Shown piece by piece: positions 39-10,494 of a stretch of 64,000 bases of DNA; position 1 is the first letter of the stretch, and each line of letters starts with the position of its first letter. The stretch covers positions 1-64,000 of the forward strand of contig NZ_JAPYPG010000006.1 in NCBI RefSeq assembly GCF_029937755.1. The letters run 5' to 3'. The notes beneath the pieces were generated by a model. The model was not told the origin of the DNA and did not search any database. It worked only from the letters and a program-made list of their open reading frames with translations. A program made the translations under genes and the position numbers. Origin of the DNA: Henriciella sp. Lineage in GTDB: Bacteria > Pseudomonadota > Alphaproteobacteria > Caulobacterales > Hyphomonadaceae.

Positions 39-653
39 TCACGGGGTTGGGTCACTTGTAATAACGATTTCATTTGGTTCCGTTACGCACCCGTGGATCT
101 TGTATATTTCGCCTATAGTGAAGGGCATGCCGCGAAGTGCATTCTGTCCAACAATCACTTCGTGATCTGGAAAAACGGTTTCAAGAAATGTGTCGTAATT
201 GGTCGTGATAACCGCGTGGGGCTTTATTTCTGCCAGCAGGCCAATTTCCTTGGCGAGAGATTCATCAGGCAGGTCGCTCAATTCCTTTGGTGTTCTCTCG
301 TCAAAGTGTTGTGCTATCGCAGTTTTGAGAAACAAGTCTGCTGGAGTTGCCTCATCAAAAAGCTGTTTCGGAAATCGATTTTTTCCCGTTGACCAAGCCC
401 ACTCTCGATAGAAGTCGGAAAATACTTTACCAATTTGCGGCTGCGATGAGCACGATTGGGCGTAGTAGGCGTAGTCCTTATCAATTAGCGGGTTCTCTTC
501 AGCGAGATGCCGCAATAGTTCAGTCCAGCTGGGTGCCCCAAAATATCGTTTCGACATACCTGAGCCAAAGAATAGCACCGGCTGACATTGCAAGTCGCTT
601 ATTACGGTAGAGATGTCTTTGCCGATCCGGGCTTGGTACTCGTGATAGCTCAT
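39..653 (-). CDS. SIR2-like domain protein, C-terminally truncated
   Basis: The 204-residue product has the hallmarks of SIR2-like NADase/defence proteins. There is an N-terminal nucleotide-binding segment VLFFGSGMSKRYFGAPSW (about residues 27-44), the conserved VITTNYDTFLE (about 147-157) and the YKIHGC histidine motif (about 182-187). In anti-phage SIR2 proteins the Asn of TNYD and the His of KIHG form the NAD-cleaving site. The frame stops at ITSDPTP, just where the family normally continues into the last part of the Rossmann fold, so the domain looks cut short. GC is well below that of neighbouring genes, suggesting transfer. The last ~40 bases before the window edge are GC-rich in a different frame, so a breakpoint or frameshift is likely. 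No partner gene is visible. Confidence 0.7.
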   Translation of the reverse strand: MSYHEYQARIGKDISTVISDLQCQPVLFFGSGMSKRYFGAPSWTELLRHLAEENPLIDKDYAYYAQSCSSQPQIGKVFSDFYREWAWSTGKNRFPKQLFDEATPADLFLKTAIAQHFDERTPKELSDLPDESLAKEIGLLAEIKPHAVITTNYDTFLETVFPDHEVIVGQNALRGMPFTIGEIYKIHGCVTEPNEIVITSDPTP

Positions 654-752: not shown

Positions 753-887
753 TCTACCGCCCCTCACGCCGCCACGCCAGCAGCAGGAACGCCACAATCG
801 CCAGCGCCGCGAGCAGACCCGGCAGGAGCGGCAGGCTGGTCGAGCTTCTGACCGCATAGGCGCCCCGCTCACGCAGCCCCAGCCAGC
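753..887 (-). pseudogene. Detached 3' end of the vWA membrane-protein gene (direct repeat copy A)
   Basis: These 135 bases repeat the 3' end of the vWA gene (copy B, 2646-2780), including its last ~43 codons and stop. By my base-by-base alignment there are 7 substitutions and no indels, and all are synonymous: both copies encode LGLRERGAYAVRSSTSLPLL and the same C-terminal membrane helix ending RREGR. The fragment has no start signal and is joined 8 bases from the stop of the TonB-domain gene. A copy with only silent changes must have come from a functional homologue, not from decay of a local duplicate. The ORF listed at 754..963 is this fragment read through out-of-frame TonB-gene sequence. 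Confidence 0.85.
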
Positions 888-895
888 AACCCGGC

Positions 896-1948
896 CTAGT
901 CCTCGAGCTGGTATTCCAGCGGATAGATGATGGCGTGGCGTTCATAGGCCTGGCCGTCGACAATCAGCGGGTCGAAGCGCAGCGCGGCGACCGCCTTCTC
1001 GGACTCCTTCCGGAACTCCCTGTCACTGCACTCGGCATCGACATTCATGGGCCTGCCACGTGTGTCGATGTCGAAATGGACGTCGCAATAGCCTTCCATC
1101 CCGTGCGAGGCGGCCTCGGACGGGTAGGAGGGCCTTGGAGGCTCCCCCGGCTCCGGGTAGAGAAGCGTCCCGATGAGCCGCATCTTCATCGTCTCCAGCA
1201 GGTCATTGCCCGCCAGCGGGTGCGGCGGCGGCATGTCGAAGCCGGAGAAATACGTCTCGGCCCTGGCCTCGATCTCCGCGGCAAGCGCCTCATCGCCCTG
1301 GTGAAGGGCAATGGCGTAGGCCGTCCTGAAGGGGGTGCGGCTGTCTTCTTCTCCAAACGTATCGAGGAGCGGCAGCAGCAGGTCGAGCGCCTCGGCCGGC
1401 CTGTCCTGGCCGAGCAGGCCGATGGCGTGGGCCCATGTAAGCTGAGGCTTGAGGGAGGCGGGCGCGGCGGCGCGCTCACGCTGGTCGATCAGGACAAGCG
1501 CCTGCGGGCGTTCGGCATCGCGCAGCTTGTGGATCAGCGTGCGGACCTTTTCTTCCTTCGTGCCGCTGTCATCGTATTCGAGGCTCTGGACAATCACGTC
1601 GAGGGCCGCCGCAGCGGTGAGCGGGTCCGGCGATTCCGCGCTGACGAAGATCGAGGCGCCGTAGAAGGCTTCGCGGTCGCGGCAGGTGTACTTGTCCTTC
1701 TGCGACTCGGCCTGGATGTCGCTGAGGATGCTGTTGATGTGGTCGCGGATATCGTCCTTGCGGTAAGAGGGCAGGCGGGCGGTCTTGCGGTACCACTGCT
1801 TGATCTTCTTGTCGGCGCGGGGGCTGACGTCGCTGACCTGGCAGGGGGCGGCCTCTGCAGCTTGCGCGGCGGCTTCCGGGCTGGCTGCGGCGATGGCTGC
1901 GCCAGCGGCGAGCCCCAGCAGCACGGCCCTGAACGATCCTGATCCCAT
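896..1948 (-). CDS. TonB C-terminal domain periplasmic protein
   Basis: The 350-aa protein begins with an Ala-rich signal peptide (MGSGSFRAVLLGLAAGAAIAA, cleavage near AAAQA). A helical middle region of unknown fold follows, about residues 35-260. It ends with a TonB_C-type domain: PSYPSEAASHGMEGYCDVHF, then a Gly-Arg turn and a terminal strand pattern ending IIYPLEYQLED. It has no N-terminal transmembrane anchor or Pro-rich linker like classical TonB, so it is more likely a soluble periplasmic TonB-family protein than an ExbBD-driven energy transducer. It lies inside the repeat-bracketed cassette, divergent from the FKBP gene. The ATG start is supported by a GAGAGGGG-like ribosome site. Confidence 0.7.
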   Translation of the reverse strand: MGSGSFRAVLLGLAAGAAIAAASPEAAAQAAEAAPCQVSDVSPRADKKIKQWYRKTARLPSYRKDDIRDHINSILSDIQAESQKDKYTCRDREAFYGASIFVSAESPDPLTAAAALDVIVQSLEYDDSGTKEEKVRTLIHKLRDAERPQALVLIDQRERAAAPASLKPQLTWAHAIGLLGQDRPAEALDLLLPLLDTFGEEDSRTPFRTAYAIALHQGDEALAAEIEARAETYFSGFDMPPPHPLAGNDLLETMKMRLIGTLLYPEPGEPPRPSYPSEAASHGMEGYCDVHFDIDTRGRPMNVDAECSDREFRKESEKAVAALRFDPLIVDGQAYERHAIIYPLEYQLED

Positions 1949-1965
1949 GGTTGCGCCCCTCTCTC

Positions 1966-1980
1966 ACTGTTAGAAACAGT
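1966..1980. promoter_or_regulatory. Inverted repeat ACTGTT-AGA-AACAGT upstream of TonB-domain gene
   Basis: A perfect 6-bp inverted repeat with a 3-base centre lies 18 bases upstream of the TonB-domain start codon. It could be an operator or a small 5' leader hairpin. The rest of the 259-base divergent spacer to the FKBP gene shows no promoter or RNA I can name. Confidence 0.35.
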
Positions 1981-2207
1981 TCCTGCTTAGAGCGCTTGCG
2001 CGGCAGGGTCGAGTCCGGCGCGGGCTGTAATGGCTATTGCCCTTGGCAGGGCGCAGGCGCCGCATTCGCGGGCATCAGCATGGCGAGCCATGCGCAAAGC
2101 TATGCCCGGTGCCTGAATTTGACAGGCAGCGCTGGGATTGCGACGACTGTGAGTTGCTGGGGCGCATGCCTGCGCCTGACCTCATCAACACACGATAGGA
2201 TTATACT

Positions 2208-2645
2208 ATGCAGTCCGCAACGAAGGGCGACACTGTCCTGATAGACTACACTGTTCAAACAAATGACGGCCGGGTTGTTGGCAAGACCGAAGACGGCACG
2301 CCGGCATCCGTGACCATAGGCGAGGGCCAGATCTTTCCGGAAGTCGAAGCCGCCCTCGATGGTCTGGAGGTCGGTGGAGAGCGGTCCGTCATGGTCAGCG
2401 CTGACAATGCTTTCGGCCCGCGCCGGGAAGACATGCTTATCGATATTCCGCGCGAGCAACTGCCGAGTGAGCCGGCCCTCGAGCCTGGAATGACCCTGGC
2501 GGCTCAACAGCAGGATGGGTCAACGGTGAACCTTACGATCACCGAAGTCGGCGACGAAAAGGTCACGGCCGACGCCAACCACCCTCTTGCTGGTGAAGAT
2601 CTGCAATTCGCGCTCACACTGGTCGAGATCAAGCCGGCCGCCTGA
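2208..2645 (+). CDS. FKBP-type peptidyl-prolyl isomerase, SlyD-like
   Basis: The 145-aa protein has the SlyD/FkpB architecture. An N-terminal FKBP half (KGDTVLIDYTV...DGRVV) leads to the central GEGQIFPEVEAALDGLEVG motif, an inserted-in-flap chaperone domain (about residues 70-125), and a return to the FKBP fold through ANHPLAGEDLQF. That last block is the family signature. It catalyses proline cis-trans isomerisation and acts as a cytoplasmic folding helper; no signal peptide is seen. It lacks the His-rich metal-binding tail of E. coli SlyD. The stop codon directly abuts the 3' end of the convergent vWA gene and the start of repeat copy B, so this gene forms one end of the cassette. Confidence 0.9.
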   Translation: MQSATKGDTVLIDYTVQTNDGRVVGKTEDGTPASVTIGEGQIFPEVEAALDGLEVGGERSVMVSADNAFGPRREDMLIDIPREQLPSEPALEPGMTLAAQQQDGSTVNLTITEVGDEKVTADANHPLAGEDLQFALTLVEIKPAA

Positions 2646-2646
2646 T

Positions 2647-4617
2647 CTACCGCCCCTCACGCCGCCACGCCAGCAGCAGGAACGCCACAATCGCCAGCGC
2701 CGCCAATAGTCCCGGCAGGAGCGGCAGGCTGGTTGAGCTTCTGACCGCATAGGCGCCCCGCTCACGCAGGCCGAGCCAGCCGGCGCCTTGCGCCGAGGCA
2801 TTGCGGCCGACACGGCGGATATCCGGCAGGCTGTCGCCCGGGCGGTCCAGCGTGTAGACACCGCCGCCGGTGATGTCGGCCACCGGCTGGAGGATGTCGG
2901 GCGTCGCTTCCAGCGCGGCATATTCCTTCGGATTGGCCGGGCCGTTCAGCGTCACGGCTTCGAGCCCGCCGGAGCGGGCACGGAACAGGCCGAGCCGGTC
3001 AATCGGGGCTTCGGCGACGAACTCGCCCGGGCCGGCTTCCTGCCAGTTCGGCTCCATCAGCGCGCCGTCGGGTGTCTCGATGGAGAGCGGCGGGGCATTG
3101 TCCGACAGGGTGCGCAGCGTCGCGCGCAGCGTGTCGCCCTGGGCTTCCAGCCGCAGCTGGCGCTCTTCCAGTTCCGGCTCCTTCATCAGCCAGTGCACCA
3201 TGCGCCGGATCAGCTCGGCAAACGGCCCGCCGCCATCATGGCCGCGCGCCCAGAGCCAGATCTGGCCCGACAGGAGCTGCGCGACCCGGCCATCGCCGAC
3301 GCGGTCGACCACGAGCAGCGGGTCGCCATTGGCCGTCATCAGCACGTCACCGGCCTCTGCGGTCGCCTCGATATAGCGCACCCAGCCGCCCCAGCTCTGG
3401 CCGTCGAGGCTCTGGGTGACGGTGTGGCGCTTGCCCGTGTCTGAGAGTTCCGGCGTGAATTCGCCGACCTCGATCGTATTGGTCGGCAGGGCGGGCAGCA
3501 CGCCTGCGAGCGGTGTGTTGGCGAGGCTGGCCGGGCCGGCGAAATCCTCGCCCGCCGCGATCAGCAGGGCCCCGCCATCGGCGACATAGCGCGCCATGTT
3601 GGCGAGGTAGCTCATCGTGATGACGGTGCGCCGCTCATACTGGTCGAAGATGATGAGATCGAACTCGTCGAGCTTGCCCTCGAACAGTTCGTCCGTGGGG
3701 AAGGCGATCAGCGCCATTTCCTCAAGCGGGGTGATGTCCTGCTTGAAGGGCGGGCGCAGGATGGTGAAGTGGACGAGGTCGACCGAGGGGTCGGATTTCA
3801 GGAGGTCGCGCCAGACCCGGCCGGCGGCGTTCGGCTTGCCGGTGATCAGCAGCACGCGGAGGCGATCACGCACGCCTGAGAGCGTGGCGGCGGTGCGGTT
3901 ATTCGCCATGGTCAGCTCCTGCTCACCCTCCGGCGTCTCGACCACGACGATATTGTCGCCGCGCCGCTCGATCTCGATGGGCAGCGGGGTGTCCTCGCCA
4001 GTCTCCACGGTGATGCGTTCCGGCAGGCCGCCATTCACCGAAACGGTGACGGTCGCGGTGTTGGCGACCGGGTCATCGACGCGCACGACGAATTGCGCCT
4101 CCTCGCCGACAATCCCGAAATCGGGCGACTGGACGAGCGAGATGCGCCGGTCACCGCTGTCGGGGTCGCCGGAAATCAGGGCATGGATGGGCCCAAGCTC
4201 GGCAAGCCGGGACAGGCTCTCCGGTATGTCATGGACCTGCCCGTCGGTGATCAGCACGGCACCGGCAATCCGGTCACGCGGGACATCCGCCATCAGGCCT
4301 TCCAGCGCGCCGATCAGGTTGGTGCCATCCGACTGGCTGTCGGTCTCGATGATGCGGACCTCGAGCGAGGCATCGGCATCGAGTTCGTCCTGCAGCTGTT
4401 CGCGCGCGGCATTCGCGATCTCGGTGCGCTCGCCGAAGGTCATGCTTTCGGAGCGGTCGACGATGACGGCGGCGACGGACGGCAGCGGTTCGCGCTCCTC
4501 GCGGACATAAGCCGGATTGGACAGGGCGGCGGCCAGCGCCGTCAGCGCCGCGGCGCGTGTCAGCCAGGCCCGTCCGCGCCAGCGCAGATAGGCGAGATAG
4601 GCCAGCACACACACCAC
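2647..4617 (-). CDS. vWA and GATase-like domain membrane protein
   Basis: The protein starts in a transmembrane stretch. A von Willebrand A-type domain follows with a MIDAS-like VDRSESM motif (about residues 53-59), then a beta-rich region and a class-I glutamine-amidotransferase-like fold (YVADGGALLIAAGEDFAGP). It ends in a second helix, LLPGLLAALAIVAFLLLAW. Proteins of this shape are the last gene of alphaproteobacterial moxR-DUF58-DUF4159 operons and are thought to act with the MoxR ATPase; no substrate is known. The GTG start shown lies inside the first hydrophobic segment. The frame stays open upstream (LTEAGRISFDPLLGWPV) without ATG, GTG or TTG, so a CTG start near 4685 is possible. Its 3' end is the source of the direct repeat. 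Confidence 0.85.
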   Translation of the reverse strand: MVCVLAYLAYLRWRGRAWLTRAAALTALAAALSNPAYVREEREPLPSVAAVIVDRSESMTFGERTEIANAAREQLQDELDADASLEVRIIETDSQSDGTNLIGALEGLMADVPRDRIAGAVLITDGQVHDIPESLSRLAELGPIHALISGDPDSGDRRISLVQSPDFGIVGEEAQFVVRVDDPVANTATVTVSVNGGLPERITVETGEDTPLPIEIERRGDNIVVVETPEGEQELTMANNRTAATLSGVRDRLRVLLITGKPNAAGRVWRDLLKSDPSVDLVHFTILRPPFKQDITPLEEMALIAFPTDELFEGKLDEFDLIIFDQYERRTVITMSYLANMARYVADGGALLIAAGEDFAGPASLANTPLAGVLPALPTNTIEVGEFTPELSDTGKRHTVTQSLDGQSWGGWVRYIEATAEAGDVLMTANGDPLLVVDRVGDGRVAQLLSGQIWLWARGHDGGGPFAELIRRMVHWLMKEPELEERQLRLEAQGDTLRATLRTLSDNAPPLSIETPDGALMEPNWQEAGPGEFVAEAPIDRLGLFRARSGGLEAVTLNGPANPKEYAALEATPDILQPVADITGGGVYTLDRPGDSLPDIRRVGRNASAQGAGWLGLRERGAYAVRSSTSLPLLPGLLAALAIVAFLLLAWRREGR

Positions 4618-4679: not shown

Positions 4680-7541
4680 TCAGTTCGGGCCTCCATCGGG
4701 GCTTGGCGGGATATTGTTGAAGTCGAAGCGGTCTTCCGGCGCCGGGGCGTCCTCATCGCGTTCGCCGAGGCGTTCCAGCAGGGCGGGCAGGTGGACCTGG
4801 TCTTCCTTGTAGTTGCCTGTCAGCACGTACATGATCAGATTGATCCCGAAGCGCTTGGCCAGTTCGCGCTGCTGGTCCCCGCCATCGACGGAATAGACCG
4901 GGCGGCCATGCTCATCGACTGCCCAGGCGGCTAGATAGTCCGCATCCCCGATAATCAGCCGGGAAACGCCATCGCCGCGACGCTCGGCCTTGTCGCCGAC
5001 GCCGGAGGACTCGATCCAGAGGCGGCGGTTCTGGTAGCGGCCGGGAAAGCTGTCGAGCAGGTAGAAGCTGCGGGTCAGCACATGATCCTGCGGCACGGGC
5101 GAGAGGGGCGGCGTATCGAGGCCGGGCAGCATCCGGTCGAGGTCGGCGAAACTGTCGGACCCGGCCATGTCGCCGCCATTGCGCGTGTCGATGAAGAGCG
5201 CGCCACCATTGCGGAGATACTCGTTCAGCCGCTCGACGGCCCGCGAGCTGAGCGGCTCGGCGCCTGCCGGCAGGGCGAGGAAGATCACGGGATAGACATC
5301 GAGCGCATCGGTCTCAGGATCGACATCGTGCGGCTCGGCCGGTTCCACGGAGGTACGCCGGTACAGGACGAGCGAGAGGCCGCGCAGGCCTGCCAATGTC
5401 GCCTGGTCGACAGCGGCATCGCCCGTTTTGATATAGGCCAGCCGCATGTCGAGGGCCGCTTCCGTCGCCTTGTCGATCTCCCCGGAGACATTGACGTCGA
5501 CGCCGTAGCCGGGGCTCGAGCGGTAGCTATAGGGGCTGGGGCTGACATCATAGCGTTGGGCTTCTGCCGGCAGCTGGACAGCCTGGACGGCCGGGAAGGC
5601 CAGCGCCACGAGAACGGCTGCGCGCGCGGCGCGGTTGACCAGCGGCAGGCGCCCGGCAATGGCGAGCGCGATGATCAGGTCGATGGCAATCAGAAGCCCC
5701 GCAAGGCCCAGTAGCGGGCCGCCGAGCCGGGCAGACCGGGCTTCCGCATCGCCGAGCAGGCGTGTTCCGGTCGGCCAGTCTGTAACCAGCTCGGCTTCAT
5801 AGCCCGCCGCGGCATTGATCGCGCGGGTGCCGGATGGCCCACGGTAGAGACCCGGAGGATGGGACTCGGACGGCTCGATCCCGGCAAAGTCGCTGGCGGC
5901 GACCGGCGTCGCATTGGAATCGGGCGTCACCAGGCGGCCATAGCCGTTGAGCACGATGTCTGGCGAATAGGTGCCCTCGCTGTCGCTGACGGCCTCTCCG
6001 CGACCGGCCGCGATGGCCCGGCGCAGCATTTCAACGAAGGTGCCGGAATAGGGCAGGTCCGACCAGTCCGGCCCGGCCGTGACATGAAACAGGATCAGCA
6101 TGCCCTGTCCGCGCGATGCAGCGGTGACCAGCGGAGAGCCGTCCGAAAGCCGCGCCCAGGTCTTGCTGGCGAGTTCCGGATCGGGCCGCGCCAGAACCTG
6201 CTGGCGGATTCTCACATCCTCCGGCGTGGGCAGGCCAGTGAAGGGTGAGGTCGCCGGAAAGCTGCCGATCGATTGCGGATCTTCCCATGTCAGCGCCCCG
6301 CCAATCGCACGCGAAGAACGGCGCAGCGGGGTTGGTACGAGATTGTCGACCTGTCCGGCCATGCGCGGACCTGCAAACCGGATCAGCGCGCCGCCCTTCC
6401 GGACCCATTCGGTCACCTCTGTTTCGAGGTCCGGGGCCAACTGGCCGATATCGGTCATGATGATCGCATCAGGGTTGGCGGCAATCAGGTCCGGCAGGCT
6501 GCTCTCGGTAATCGTGGCGAAAGGCTCAAGCGCCTTTCGGACATAGTGCATGTCAGAAAGCAGCGGCTGGGCCGCCGAGTCGCCCGAGACAAGGCCGACT
6601 CGGCGGGAACGTGCTGCTGAATCCCAGAGCCATACACTGCCAGCGCCTTCAGAGCCCGTGATGGTAAAGCGGGCTATCCGGGCCAGAGCGGCCGCGGGAA
6701 TGTCGAATACGGCCTGCGCATCGGCCTGATCCTTGGCGAAGGAGGCTTCCGCCGTGGCGAGCGCAGCCCCGTCGAGCGTCAGCGCGGAGACATAGCGCTG
6801 GCTGTCCTCTGCGGTATCGGCCCGGGTGAGCCTCACCGTCGCCCCATCGGCGTCGGAGCTCAGCGCGGTAATCGCGGATGGCCCGCGGGGTGGGGCGGCA
6901 TAGACGCTGAGCGGTGCGACAGCCGACAAGGCCCGGGCAAAGGGCAGGGCGGTTTCAGGATCGAGGCCGTCGGTCACCCAGAAAATACGGCCAGGCTCGA
7001 GCCCGGCTTCCTCCAGCCGCGCCAGCGCGTCCTCGCGGTCGACGCCCCACGCCACCGGGTCGAGCGAGTTCACCCGCTGGGGCAGTTCGGTCTTGGTCAG
7101 CCGTTCGGACGGGTCGGCATTCAGCGATTTTGGTGCGGTCAGCAGCAAGTGGCCTGCCGTGTTGCGGCCTTCTCCATCAAGGGCGCCTGCGGCGACCGAG
7201 CGGATCTCACTCCAGCGGGCCGCACTGGTCCAGCCATTGTCAACCACGACAAGGACGGGGCCGGACGCTTCGCTTTCGGGGCTGGCTCCCGGTGCATAGA
7301 CCGGTTGCGACAGGCCGATAATGGCCGCGGCGGCCGCCAGCATCCTCAGCAGCAGGATCCACCATGGCGTGCGCGCCGGGGTCTCGTCGCGTGGTGTGAC
7401 ATCGTCGAGCAGGCGCAGGGATGGCAGGTCGGCTTCCTGCGGGGCCGGCGGGGTCGCGCGCAGCACATACCAGATCACCGGCAGGGCGATCAGGCCGAGC
7501 AGGGCAAGCGGCGCACCGAACAGGAAGGGGCCGAACATCAT
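4680..7541 (-). CDS. DUF4159 domain protein with N-terminal BatA-type membrane region
   Basis: The 953-aa protein opens with the BatA-like double helix (MMFGPFLFGAPLALLGLIALPVIWYVL and WILLLRMLAAAAAIIGLSQP). A large periplasmic vWA/GATase-like region follows, with two further helices near residues 650-700. It ends in a DUF4159 domain (about 720-930; YPVIFLALPAGAEPLSSRAV, LNEYLRNGGALFIDTRNGG). It overlaps the DUF58 gene by 4 bases (ATGA), so the two are translationally coupled. Family knowledge places it with MoxR/DUF58 in a membrane complex with suggested chaperone or envelope-stress roles; the exact function is not known. The length is usual for this alphaproteobacterial family. Confidence 0.88.
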   Translation of the reverse strand: MMFGPFLFGAPLALLGLIALPVIWYVLRATPPAPQEADLPSLRLLDDVTPRDETPARTPWWILLLRMLAAAAAIIGLSQPVYAPGASPESEASGPVLVVVDNGWTSAARWSEIRSVAAGALDGEGRNTAGHLLLTAPKSLNADPSERLTKTELPQRVNSLDPVAWGVDREDALARLEEAGLEPGRIFWVTDGLDPETALPFARALSAVAPLSVYAAPPRGPSAITALSSDADGATVRLTRADTAEDSQRYVSALTLDGAALATAEASFAKDQADAQAVFDIPAAALARIARFTITGSEGAGSVWLWDSAARSRRVGLVSGDSAAQPLLSDMHYVRKALEPFATITESSLPDLIAANPDAIIMTDIGQLAPDLETEVTEWVRKGGALIRFAGPRMAGQVDNLVPTPLRRSSRAIGGALTWEDPQSIGSFPATSPFTGLPTPEDVRIRQQVLARPDPELASKTWARLSDGSPLVTAASRGQGMLILFHVTAGPDWSDLPYSGTFVEMLRRAIAAGRGEAVSDSEGTYSPDIVLNGYGRLVTPDSNATPVAASDFAGIEPSESHPPGLYRGPSGTRAINAAAGYEAELVTDWPTGTRLLGDAEARSARLGGPLLGLAGLLIAIDLIIALAIAGRLPLVNRAARAAVLVALAFPAVQAVQLPAEAQRYDVSPSPYSYRSSPGYGVDVNVSGEIDKATEAALDMRLAYIKTGDAAVDQATLAGLRGLSLVLYRRTSVEPAEPHDVDPETDALDVYPVIFLALPAGAEPLSSRAVERLNEYLRNGGALFIDTRNGGDMAGSDSFADLDRMLPGLDTPPLSPVPQDHVLTRSFYLLDSFPGRYQNRRLWIESSGVGDKAERRGDGVSRLIIGDADYLAAWAVDEHGRPVYSVDGGDQQRELAKRFGINLIMYVLTGNYKEDQVHLPALLERLGERDEDAPAPEDRFDFNNIPPSPDGGPN

Positions 7542-8404
7542 AGGCGCGCTCCGAAGAGTTCGAGCGCCTGTTTCAGGTCAGACGCGCAGCGCTGCAGCGG
7601 CGAGCCGGTCGAATGTCGCACCAGCTGCCAGCCCATGCCGGCGGCCATGTTCTCGAGCGCTTCAAAGTGCGCGGTGTAGCGCTGGACGTATTCTTCGCGG
7701 ATCGTTTCTGCGCGTCCGAAGATGCGGGACAGTGCTCCGCCCGGGCGTGAGAAACGCACGCGTCCGCGCCACGGAAACGTTTCCTCGATGGGATCGCTGA
7801 TGGCGAGAAGGATGCCTTCCTTCGATGTGCCGGCCAGCGGCGCCAGGCGGTCGCGCCAGACATCAACCGGATCATAGAAATCGCTCGCGACGACGAAGAT
7901 GGACTGGGATTTCGGCGGCGGCGGAAAGCCCTGCGCCGTTTTGGCAAGCAGGTCCTCGGCAAGCTTGTCGCCGGCCGCCCTGCCGAAGCCGGGGGTGCGG
8001 CCCGATCCCAGGGCGCCGATACGTTCTCCTGCCTTCGACAGGAGCAGCGCAGCAGCCAGCATGGAAATACGGGCGGCATCTGCCTTGTGCAGGCGCGCCG
8101 GTTCGCCTGACCAGTCAAACCCGGCATGCGGGTCGCACCAGAAAAGCACGGTGCGCGAGGTTTCCAGCTCGGTCTCGCGAACGAACAGGTCATCGCCCCG
8201 GCCGGACCGGCGCCAGTCGATCCGCTGGGCGGCATCCTCCTGGGCGTAGTGACGGTATTGCCAGAACTGTTCGCCGGTGCCTGCACGCTTGCGGCCGGCC
8301 GCGCCGAGATGCGCAGTGTCGGCGGCGCGGGCCTGCAGGTTCAGGCCGGGAAGGGAACGGGCAAGAACCTCGGCTTCTGCGCGCAGGGTGGCGGCGTCCA
8401 TCAT
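7538..8404 (-). CDS. DUF58 domain-containing protein
   Basis: I start this gene at MMDAATLRAE (ATG at 8404), not at the longer ORF start, because this ATG forms an ATGA overlap with the stop of the upstream lipoprotein gene. The 288-aa product has the DUF58 core: GTGEQFWQYRHYAQEDAAQRIDW (about residues 43-65), followed by RSGRGDDLFVRETELET. The vWA-like half begins VLFWCDPHAGFDW. It has no clear membrane helix, unlike longer DUF58 proteins. DUF58 proteins accompany MoxR AAA+ ATPases across bacteria and are assumed partners. It is coupled to both flanking genes. Confidence 0.92.
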   Translation of the reverse strand: MMDAATLRAEAEVLARSLPGLNLQARAADTAHLGAAGRKRAGTGEQFWQYRHYAQEDAAQRIDWRRSGRGDDLFVRETELETSRTVLFWCDPHAGFDWSGEPARLHKADAARISMLAAALLLSKAGERIGALGSGRTPGFGRAAGDKLAEDLLAKTAQGFPPPPKSQSIFVVASDFYDPVDVWRDRLAPLAGTSKEGILLAISDPIEETFPWRGRVRFSRPGGALSRIFGRAETIREEYVQRYTAHFEALENMAAGMGWQLVRHSTGSPLQRCASDLKQALELFGARL

Positions 8405-8850
8405 GGCGCGACCTTCTCTGCGCAATCGAGGGCAATGGCGATGCTGTTTCGCCACTGCTCCGGCGCGTCGCCAGCGGAAGACAGGGCAGCGGCGCGTTGC
8501 TGCTCGCTCAATCCCGCCTCGGCATTGATCCCTTCAAGGAAAGCTTCGGCCTTTGCCGATTCACCTGAAAATTGCGCGGCGCTGATGTCGAGGCCTTCGC
8601 GTTTTGCCCAGACGTGCAGGACACGTGCGCTGGCATCAGAAAGCTGCCGGCGGGCGGCCTGGCGTTCGCCCGGCGCCATTTCTGGCCCGGCCACCTGCAC
8701 GGCAAGCGAAGCGCGCTGCAGCGAGCGATGACAGTCAGCCAGCGCGTCGGCATCCGGCGGCCCGGCGTCCCGTGCGCAGGCTGACAGCGCGCTTGCGCCA
8801 GCGAGCCCCAGGCCTGCCAGCATGCATCTGGATCGCAGAGCAGGTGTCAT
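8401..8850 (-). CDS. Small lipoprotein of unknown function in the moxR operon
   Basis: The 149-aa product has a lipoprotein signal, MTPALRSRCMLAGLGLAGASALSAC, with the lipobox Cys at residue 25. The mature part is a short, helix-rich, Ala/Glu-rich domain with two further Cys residues (DCHRS and LDCAEK) that could form a disulfide. I do not recognise the family. It sits between moxR (2-base gap) and DUF58 (ATGA overlap), so it is almost certainly co-translated with the MoxR system and may be its outer-envelope component. That role is inferred from position alone. Confidence 0.8.
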   Translation of the reverse strand: MTPALRSRCMLAGLGLAGASALSACARDAGPPDADALADCHRSLQRASLAVQVAGPEMAPGERQAARRQLSDASARVLHVWAKREGLDISAAQFSGESAKAEAFLEGINAEAGLSEQQRAAALSSAGDAPEQWRNSIAIALDCAEKVAP

Positions 8851-8852
8851 CT

Positions 8853-9842
8853 TCAGACGGCGGTCCTCGCAAGGTCCCCTATGAGATCACGAAGGTCGGG
8901 TGCCTGACCGGTCGGGTCGTAGCGCATGGCCATACGGTGGCCGAGACAGGGTTCGGCCAGCGCCTCGACATCCTCGAGCGAGGGGGCGAGGCGTCCGCGC
9001 AGGAGAGCGCGCGCCCGGCAGGCCAGCATCAGCGCCTGGCCGGCGCGTGGAGAGGGGCCCCAGTCGACAAAACGTTTGACGCGGTCGTCGGCGGTCTGTT
9101 CCGGCCGGGCTTCGCGCACGGTGGTGAGGATGGCGGCCAGGACTTTCTCACCGACCGGCATCTGGCGCACCAGGTGTTGCAGCTTGATCAGGTCGTCACC
9201 TGTCAGCGCGGCCTCGACCTTTGCGTCGGCATCGCCGGTCGTCTCGATCAGGATTTTCCGTTCGGTGTCGATGTCGGGATAGGAGACGTCGATCTTGAGC
9301 AGGAAGCGGTCGAGCTGGGCTTCCGGCAGCGGGTAGGTGCCTTCCTGTTCGATCGGGTTCTGCGTGGCGAGGACGTGGAATGGCGCAGGCAGGTCGTAGC
9401 GGACGCCGGCCACGGTCACGTGGTGCTCCTGCATGGCCTGCAGCAGCGCGGACTGGGTGCGCGGCGAGGCGCGGTTGATCTCGTCGGCCATCAGGAGCTG
9501 CGTGAAGATCGGGCCCTTGATGAAGCGGAAGCTGCGCTCGCCGCTGGCGCTTTCGTCAAGCACCTCGGAGCCGAGAATATCAGACGGCATAAGGTCTGGC
9601 GTGAACTGGATGCGGGCGGAATTGAGCCCCAGCGCGGTGCCCATCGCATCGACCAGCCGGGTCTTTGCAAGGCCCGGCGCACCGATCAGCAAGGCATGGC
9701 CGCCCGCCAGAATGGCCGAGAGTGCCAGCTCGATTACACGGTCCTGGCCGAAGACCGCCTTGGCGATCTCCTCCTTGACCTTTGCAAGCGTGTCGCCTGC
9801 CGCTTCTGCGTCCTGAACAATGGCCTGATTATCGTCTGCCAT
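8853..9842 (-). CDS. MoxR family AAA+ ATPase
   Basis: This 329-aa AAA+ ATPase has a Walker A at GAPGLAKTR (about residues 48-56), a Walker B at LLMADEINRASPRTQ, sensor 1 at LATQNPIEQEGTYPLPEAQLDRF and a C-terminal lid domain with WGPSPRAGQALMLACRA. I start it at MADDNQAIVQD (ATG 9842); the ORF track extends 101 residues upstream into the divergent DUF1285 gene with no family resemblance. MoxR ATPases act as chaperones that mature or insert metal cofactors through vWA partners. It is the first gene of the leftward operon, and the 52-base gap to DUF1285 must hold both divergent promoters. Confidence 0.95.
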   Translation of the reverse strand: MADDNQAIVQDAEAAGDTLAKVKEEIAKAVFGQDRVIELALSAILAGGHALLIGAPGLAKTRLVDAMGTALGLNSARIQFTPDLMPSDILGSEVLDESASGERSFRFIKGPIFTQLLMADEINRASPRTQSALLQAMQEHHVTVAGVRYDLPAPFHVLATQNPIEQEGTYPLPEAQLDRFLLKIDVSYPDIDTERKILIETTGDADAKVEAALTGDDLIKLQHLVRQMPVGEKVLAAILTTVREARPEQTADDRVKRFVDWGPSPRAGQALMLACRARALLRGRLAPSLEDVEALAEPCLGHRMAMRYDPTGQAPDLRDLIGDLARTAV

Positions 9843-9894
9843 GAGGTCTCCGTCTTCACTCCCGCCTACAACAGACCTAGGTCTAGGCAAAATC

Positions 9895-10494
9895 ATGGCG
9901 GAGCGCGATGTGAATTCCAAATACGATACTGTAATCAGTCTGGAAGAGCTCCTGAAAGAGATTTCCCCAGACCCGAGCGGACGAAAATTGCCACCGGTCG
10001 AAAAGTGGTCGCCCGAACGGTCGACCGACATCGACATGGAGATCAAGTCCGATGGCAGCTGGTGGCACGAAGGCTCGCGGATCAACCGCAAGAAGCTGGT
10101 GCGGCTGTTCTCGACCATCCTGCGCAGGGACGAGGACGGGTCCACCTGGCTGGTGACCCCTTATGAAAAGGTCGTCGTCCATGTCGAGGACGCGCCTTTT
10201 GTCGCAGTGCGTGTCGACCGCGCCGGAGAGCCAGGGCCTGACCAGTCGCTCGCCTTTTCCACCAGTGTCGGCGATGTGGTTGTCGCCGGTCCGGACAATC
10301 CCATTCGCGTGGAAACCGATCCGGAAACCGGTGAGCCCTCGCCTTATGTCCTCGTGCGCGGACGGCTGGAGGCAAAGCTCGCCCGGCCCGTCTTCTACGA
10401 GCTGGCCGGGATGGCCGTGCCGGATCCGGAGGATGGCGAGACGCTGGGTGTCTGGTCGAAAGGGGTTTTCTTTCCGCTCGGGGCGGCTGAATAG
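9895..10494 (+). CDS. DUF1285 domain-containing protein
   Basis: The 199-aa product matches the DUF1285 pattern: PPVEKWSPERSTDIDMEIKS, then DGSWWHEGSRINRKKLVRLF, STILRRDEDG and YEKVVVHVEDAPFVA. I start at MAERDVNSK (ATG 9895) instead of the ORF-track ATG at 9841, which overlaps the start codon of the divergent moxR gene. It is predicted soluble and cytoplasmic; the function is unknown. It leads a tight operon with nudL (5-base gap), DUF6111 and cca, an arrangement I recall as common in alphaproteobacteria. Confidence 0.9.
   Translation: MAERDVNSKYDTVISLEELLKEISPDPSGRKLPPVEKWSPERSTDIDMEIKSDGSWWHEGSRINRKKLVRLFSTILRRDEDGSTWLVTPYEKVVVHVEDAPFVAVRVDRAGEPGPDQSLAFSTSVGDVVVAGPDNPIRVETDPETGEPSPYVLVRGRLEAKLARPVFYELAGMAVPDPEDGETLGVWSKGVFFPLGAAE

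Follow-up and report, generated by a model that had tools for sequence, protein, structure and literature searches.

A displaced vWA gene end flanks a two-gene insert at an integrase-free gene-exchange hotspot in Henriciella

The stop codon of a vWA-type gene borders an integrase-free gene-exchange hotspot in Henriciella that mostly holds short defence systems. In the window, the whole 64,000-nucleotide stretch of a Henriciella sp. genome that was analysed, this position is occupied by a cassette of two genes, encoding an FKBP-type peptidyl-prolyl isomerase and a TonB_C protein, which is bracketed by two copies of the vWA 3' end. We give a probability of roughly 55% to the reading that the cassette entered without an integrase, through homologous recombination within the 3' end of vWA, and that the additional tail copy is the scar of this event. 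Many hotspots of defence genes and gene transfer lack a mobile element, and the case for exchange via their flanking core genes has been largely statistical. Duplication of the end of a core gene around a cargo would amount to a visible scar of transfer, rendering the mechanism testable, and the locus constitutes a compact place in which to search for unknown defence genes.

Copy A, the displaced vWA 3' end (753–887, reverse strand, its 5' boundary at the WLGLR codons), and copy B, the live 3' end (2646–2780, reverse strand), differ at 7 of 135 positions with no indels, the same values upon re-measurement as in the original prediction. All seven differences are synonymous in the vWA reading frame, both copies encoding one peptide, WLGLRERGAYAVRSSTSLPLLPGLLAALAIVAFLLLAWRREGR, up to the stop codon; this silent-only divergence agrees with the earlier view that the copies act as two functional alleles. 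Identity between them ends sharply on either side, and exactly these two tail copies were recovered by a whole-genome search. The seven differences argue against an assembly artefact. The host gene (2647–4617, reverse strand, 656 aa) is the last of a MoxR-DUF58-BatA/DUF4159-vWA operon, whose other members, a MoxR AAA ATPase gene (8853–10145), a DUF58 gene (7538–8455) and a BatA/DUF4159 gene (4680–7541), lie on the same strand. Its 3' end is the site of insertion, and conservation of its tail extends to 99 of the 105 family genomes.

Between the copies lie exactly two genes, whose stop codons are separated from the adjacent repeat by 8 bases and 0 bases, respectively, in agreement with the predicted coordinates. 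The TonB_C gene (896–1948, reverse strand, 350 aa, stop codon at 896–898) is the one separated from copy A by 8 bases, and its product has a putative signal peptide as judged by eye; the short FKBP gene (2208–2645, forward strand, stop codon at 2643–2645) directly abuts copy B. Among the 105 family genomes, the sole full-length relative of the TonB protein is encoded in the same hotspot of genome G004 (44% identity). The FKBP gene is sporadic in relatives and its loci differ: the locus that holds it in H. mobilis M65 (G019), which is nearest to the window genome (G000) together with H. aquimarina LMG 24711 (G010), Henriciella sp. PW3 (G009) and H. pelagia LA220 (G021), is without FKBP in the window genome and its relatives, with a gap of about 90–100 bp in G000 and G010, and G010, G005 and G043 carry the gene at yet other loci. 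FKBP looks as if it had moved on its own, accompanied only by its upstream region. Because FKBP occurs at varied loci and the only TonB relative sits in the G004 hotspot, the two genes have separate histories, both being accessory. The proposal of a mobile or homologously recombined insertion is supported insofar as the insert is accessory, whereas the separate histories of its genes speak against a fixed mobile element. A specific FKBP-TonB donor was searched for and not found, nor did any genome show the identical FKBP-TonB-tail arrangement. No recombinase is encoded between the repeats. The TonB cargo had no match in plasmids or viral contigs (IMG/VR), the vWA tail none in phage or plasmid records, and phage, plasmid and IMG/VR look-ups of FKBP returned distant relatives only, located on large alphaproteobacterial replicons. 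The idea of cargo or tail as a free element was rejected after these look-ups.

Next to copy A lies the portion of a SIR2 defence gene that encodes the N terminus (39–653, reverse strand). The gene is incomplete on this contig (C17), of which window position 1 is the physical start; the remaining half is found at the beginning of contig C18 (C18:3-869), and PADLOC matches the two halves to one model, PDC-S25. An insertion sequence end with the terminal repeat CCAACCCCGTGATCC (1–52) splits SIR2 and breaks the assembly. On C17 and C18 alike, the contig end consists of one end of a single insertion sequence, which is 96–98% identical (98% for the end in the window) to the copy that G010 and G014 have in this hotspot; past it, C18 contains DUF421, GNAT and hydrolase genes (names read by eye from the sequences), the far flank that the locus has in common with relatives. 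Taken together, the split SIR2 gene, the shared insertion sequence ends and the far flank on C18 indicate that C17 and C18 are probably joined.

Which genes come first after vWA varies across nearly all of the 13 core-clade relatives, and the far flank of DUF421, GNAT and hydrolase genes is common to core-clade genomes, in line with the claim that insertions recur at this gene 3' end. The empty site expected in relatives was found in Henriciella sp. PW3 (G009); there, the DUF421 gene directly follows vWA. Occupied hotspots contain SIR2 in the window genome, Shedu in G019 and G018, type II restriction-modification systems in H. pelagia and G017, reverse transcriptases akin to the defence type in G012 and G005 (and in G002, on the far side), an AAA/DUF4276 pair in G004 that matches HEC-01, and, in G025, a trypsin-like protein that matches PDC-S45 weakly. 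At least 9 of 14 genomes have PADLOC matches in the variable stretch that follows vWA. Genomes of a second Henriciella clade retain a GNAT gene beside vWA. That no integrase is involved held beyond the window: on the vWA contigs of the 14 genomes, several of which are short, neither a tyrosine recombinase (PF00589) within about 200 kb of vWA nor a serine recombinase (PF00239) within about 60 kb was detected. The locus has the composition of a core-gene-flanked hotspot, varied accessory genes between conserved flanks, and besides the insertion sequences present in G000, G010 and G014 it contains no integrase or mobile-element backbone.

Genes at the hotspot position (L061:1268-2176, L052:565-1125 and L053:6267-7976), with functions weakly assigned at most, are candidate new defence genes, and in G010, G014 and G025 the assignment of the first genes after vWA is weak or lacking. 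A family of small proteins (k2), mostly about 127–164 aa, recurs on the far side of the variable segment (loci L053, L055-L061 and others) and occurs twice in G012 and G005; its member in G004 had no Pfam match.

Occurrence of both repeats in all close relatives had been named as evidence against an insertion; of the 105 family genomes, just 2 have a second vWA tail, namely those of the window and of H. pelagia. The latter provides an independent second case of a displaced tail (L056:3446-3808), located 235 bp past the vWA stop and directly before the type II restriction-modification system. The two H. pelagia tails differ at 14 of about 129 sites, with 12 of the 14 differences being silent. 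The 235-bp spacer was considered as a conserved element and dismissed, as it contains REP-like repeats that are present elsewhere in the genus.

The ancestry of the copies in the window was examined at informative sites and in a tree of tails. Copy B equals the sister species G019 and G010 at the 5' sites -127 and -124, and copy A equals them at the 3' sites -61, -60 and -58; the 3' motif of copy B, CTATTGG, is common to the G020/G017/G018 clade, and the 5' sites of copy A (CTGGGG) differ from the sister species. These sites, five in number and three of them in two adjacent codons, hint weakly at a single-crossover mosaic of a native and an incoming tail, with the exchange falling in a 35-bp stretch identical in A and B. 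In the weakly resolved tail tree, A and B are sisters (FastTree support 0.92), which argues against a distant donor; the incoming allele would be derived from a close relative, or the duplication would be local and old. Sister copies had been put forward as a refutation of foreign origin, and their closest kinship to each other in the tree narrows the choice to these two readings. That one copy came from another strain remains the better reading mainly because of the silent-only pattern and the H. pelagia parallel, with the sister grouping of A and B counting against it.

According to the homologous recombination reading, the incoming DNA, derived from a strain or species close to the recipient, would have carried its own vWA 3' end, and RecA-type homologous recombination would have taken place between this end and that of the recipient. 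A crossover inside the conserved tail, which we infer as the entry step, would leave the vWA gene intact with copy B as its end, and the other tail, copy A, would be displaced outward with the SIR2 gene behind it. The identity of the donor is likewise inferred. Transformation, transduction or a gene transfer agent may have served as the vehicle. The gene transfer agent marker GTA_TIM is encoded in 14 of 14 genomes tested, and such particles carry 5–15 kb pieces of host DNA (PMC9632790). Against this explanation stand, besides the sister position of A and B, the few sites of the mosaic and the unsuccessful donor search, the non-homologous junction at which the TonB end meets the start of copy A, which goes beyond a simple crossover, and a 5' boundary shared by three displaced tails.

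An old local tandem duplication from the vWA tail, with the material between the tails later replaced by FKBP and TonB, is a possible, albeit doubtful, alternative. It accords with the sister position of A and B, and it has a precedent in Brucella pseudintermedia CCUG 34735 (L124:11852-14499), where the vWA tail and a 269-aa gene are repeated in tandem as two units of 1.32 kb each that are 91.7% identical. This array resembles the product of a local tandem duplication in which one copy is decaying: only 5 of 8 tail differences are silent, and the displaced tail contains E-to-G, L-to-P and W-to-R changes, the latter two drastic. It thereby has the appearance of a copy free of selection, unlike the tails of the window and H. 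pelagia, and those three amino-acid changes count against the same origin in the window. For a local duplication with one neutral copy, seven of seven silent differences would moreover have a probability of about 0.005–0.007; the silent pattern recurs in H. pelagia, and neither FKBP nor TonB belongs to the ancestral locus.

The shared boundary bears on a second group of alternatives. The three displaced tails start within 9 nt of one another, at W(L/I)GLR codons 129–138 nt before the stop, a coincidence noticed post hoc and with n=3. Plain recombination does not predict such a boundary, which keeps a site-specific origin open. A perfect 5–6 bp hairpin lies just 5' of it, about 134–150 nt before the stop, in 3 of 3 genes with a displaced tail; it is also present in 4 of 20 control vWA genes without one and is thus a weak lead. 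We regard it as unlikely that the vWA 3' end is a recombinase-free attachment site, at which direct-repeat-flanked units of vWA tail and cargo, bounded at WLGLR, would be inserted and removed by host recombination and would, in a defence hotspot, give rise to tandem arrays (window, H. pelagia, Brucella). That an element integrated site-specifically into the gene 3' end and later lost its integrase is rather improbable as well, even though this would account for the W(L/I)GLR boundary in all three displaced tails and resembles the e14 insertion in icd in its duplication with mostly silent changes (PMC11148124). No tyrosine or serine recombinase lies near the locus in the 14 genomes, phage and plasmid records lack the tail, and the three inserts, of about 0.2, 1.2 and 1.8 kb, are unlike in content upon inspection. 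A class-level scan of 385 genomes, of which 195 had a tail match, likewise detected a short-frame second tail only in the window's own genome. Homology-facilitated illegitimate recombination, a sub-case of the favoured recombination reading in which one end of a linear incoming fragment crossed in the tail and the other was joined by chance to recipient DNA about 135 nt before the stop, thereby duplicating the tail, would account for one homologous and one non-homologous junction and for the silent differences, but it is very improbable, as it predicts a wholly native copy A, at odds with the CTGGGG sites, and leaves the shared boundary without an account.

Comparison with described systems places the locus among core-gene-flanked defence hotspots. 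For element-free hotspots between core genes, exchange by homologous recombination in the flanks has been proposed (Oliveira et al. 2017, PMC5635113), and the Henriciella locus is like them in its variable genes, fixed core flanks and lack of an integrase; here, in contrast, the flanking gene's own 3' end is duplicated around the insert as a physical scar. The same mode of exchange has been proposed for the core defence hotspots of Pseudomonas aeruginosa, of which cDHS1 has a median size of 26 kb, and the authors expect recombination at cDHS1 and cDHS2 to leave no mobile-element scars (PMC10250203). Fixed core flanks, swapped defence systems and the lack of a single mobile-element type are shared with these hotspots, whereas in Henriciella there is usually one system of 1–3 kb per genome and a core-gene scar is present. 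The best analogue of the shared-boundary case is found in E. coli K-12, where the e14 prophage in icd shows a duplication of 165 bp with 12 changes, most of them silent (PMC11148124). In both, a duplicated gene 3' end, its copies differing mostly at silent sites, surrounds the insert and the gene is left intact; e14, however, is a prophage with an integrase, whereas the insert described here is a 1.8-kb cargo only, and no site-specific recombinase was found among its two genes or in the vWA surroundings of the 14 genomes. The core-gene-flanked defence hotspot is of a known kind, and what is unusual is the informative footprint in the vWA tail.
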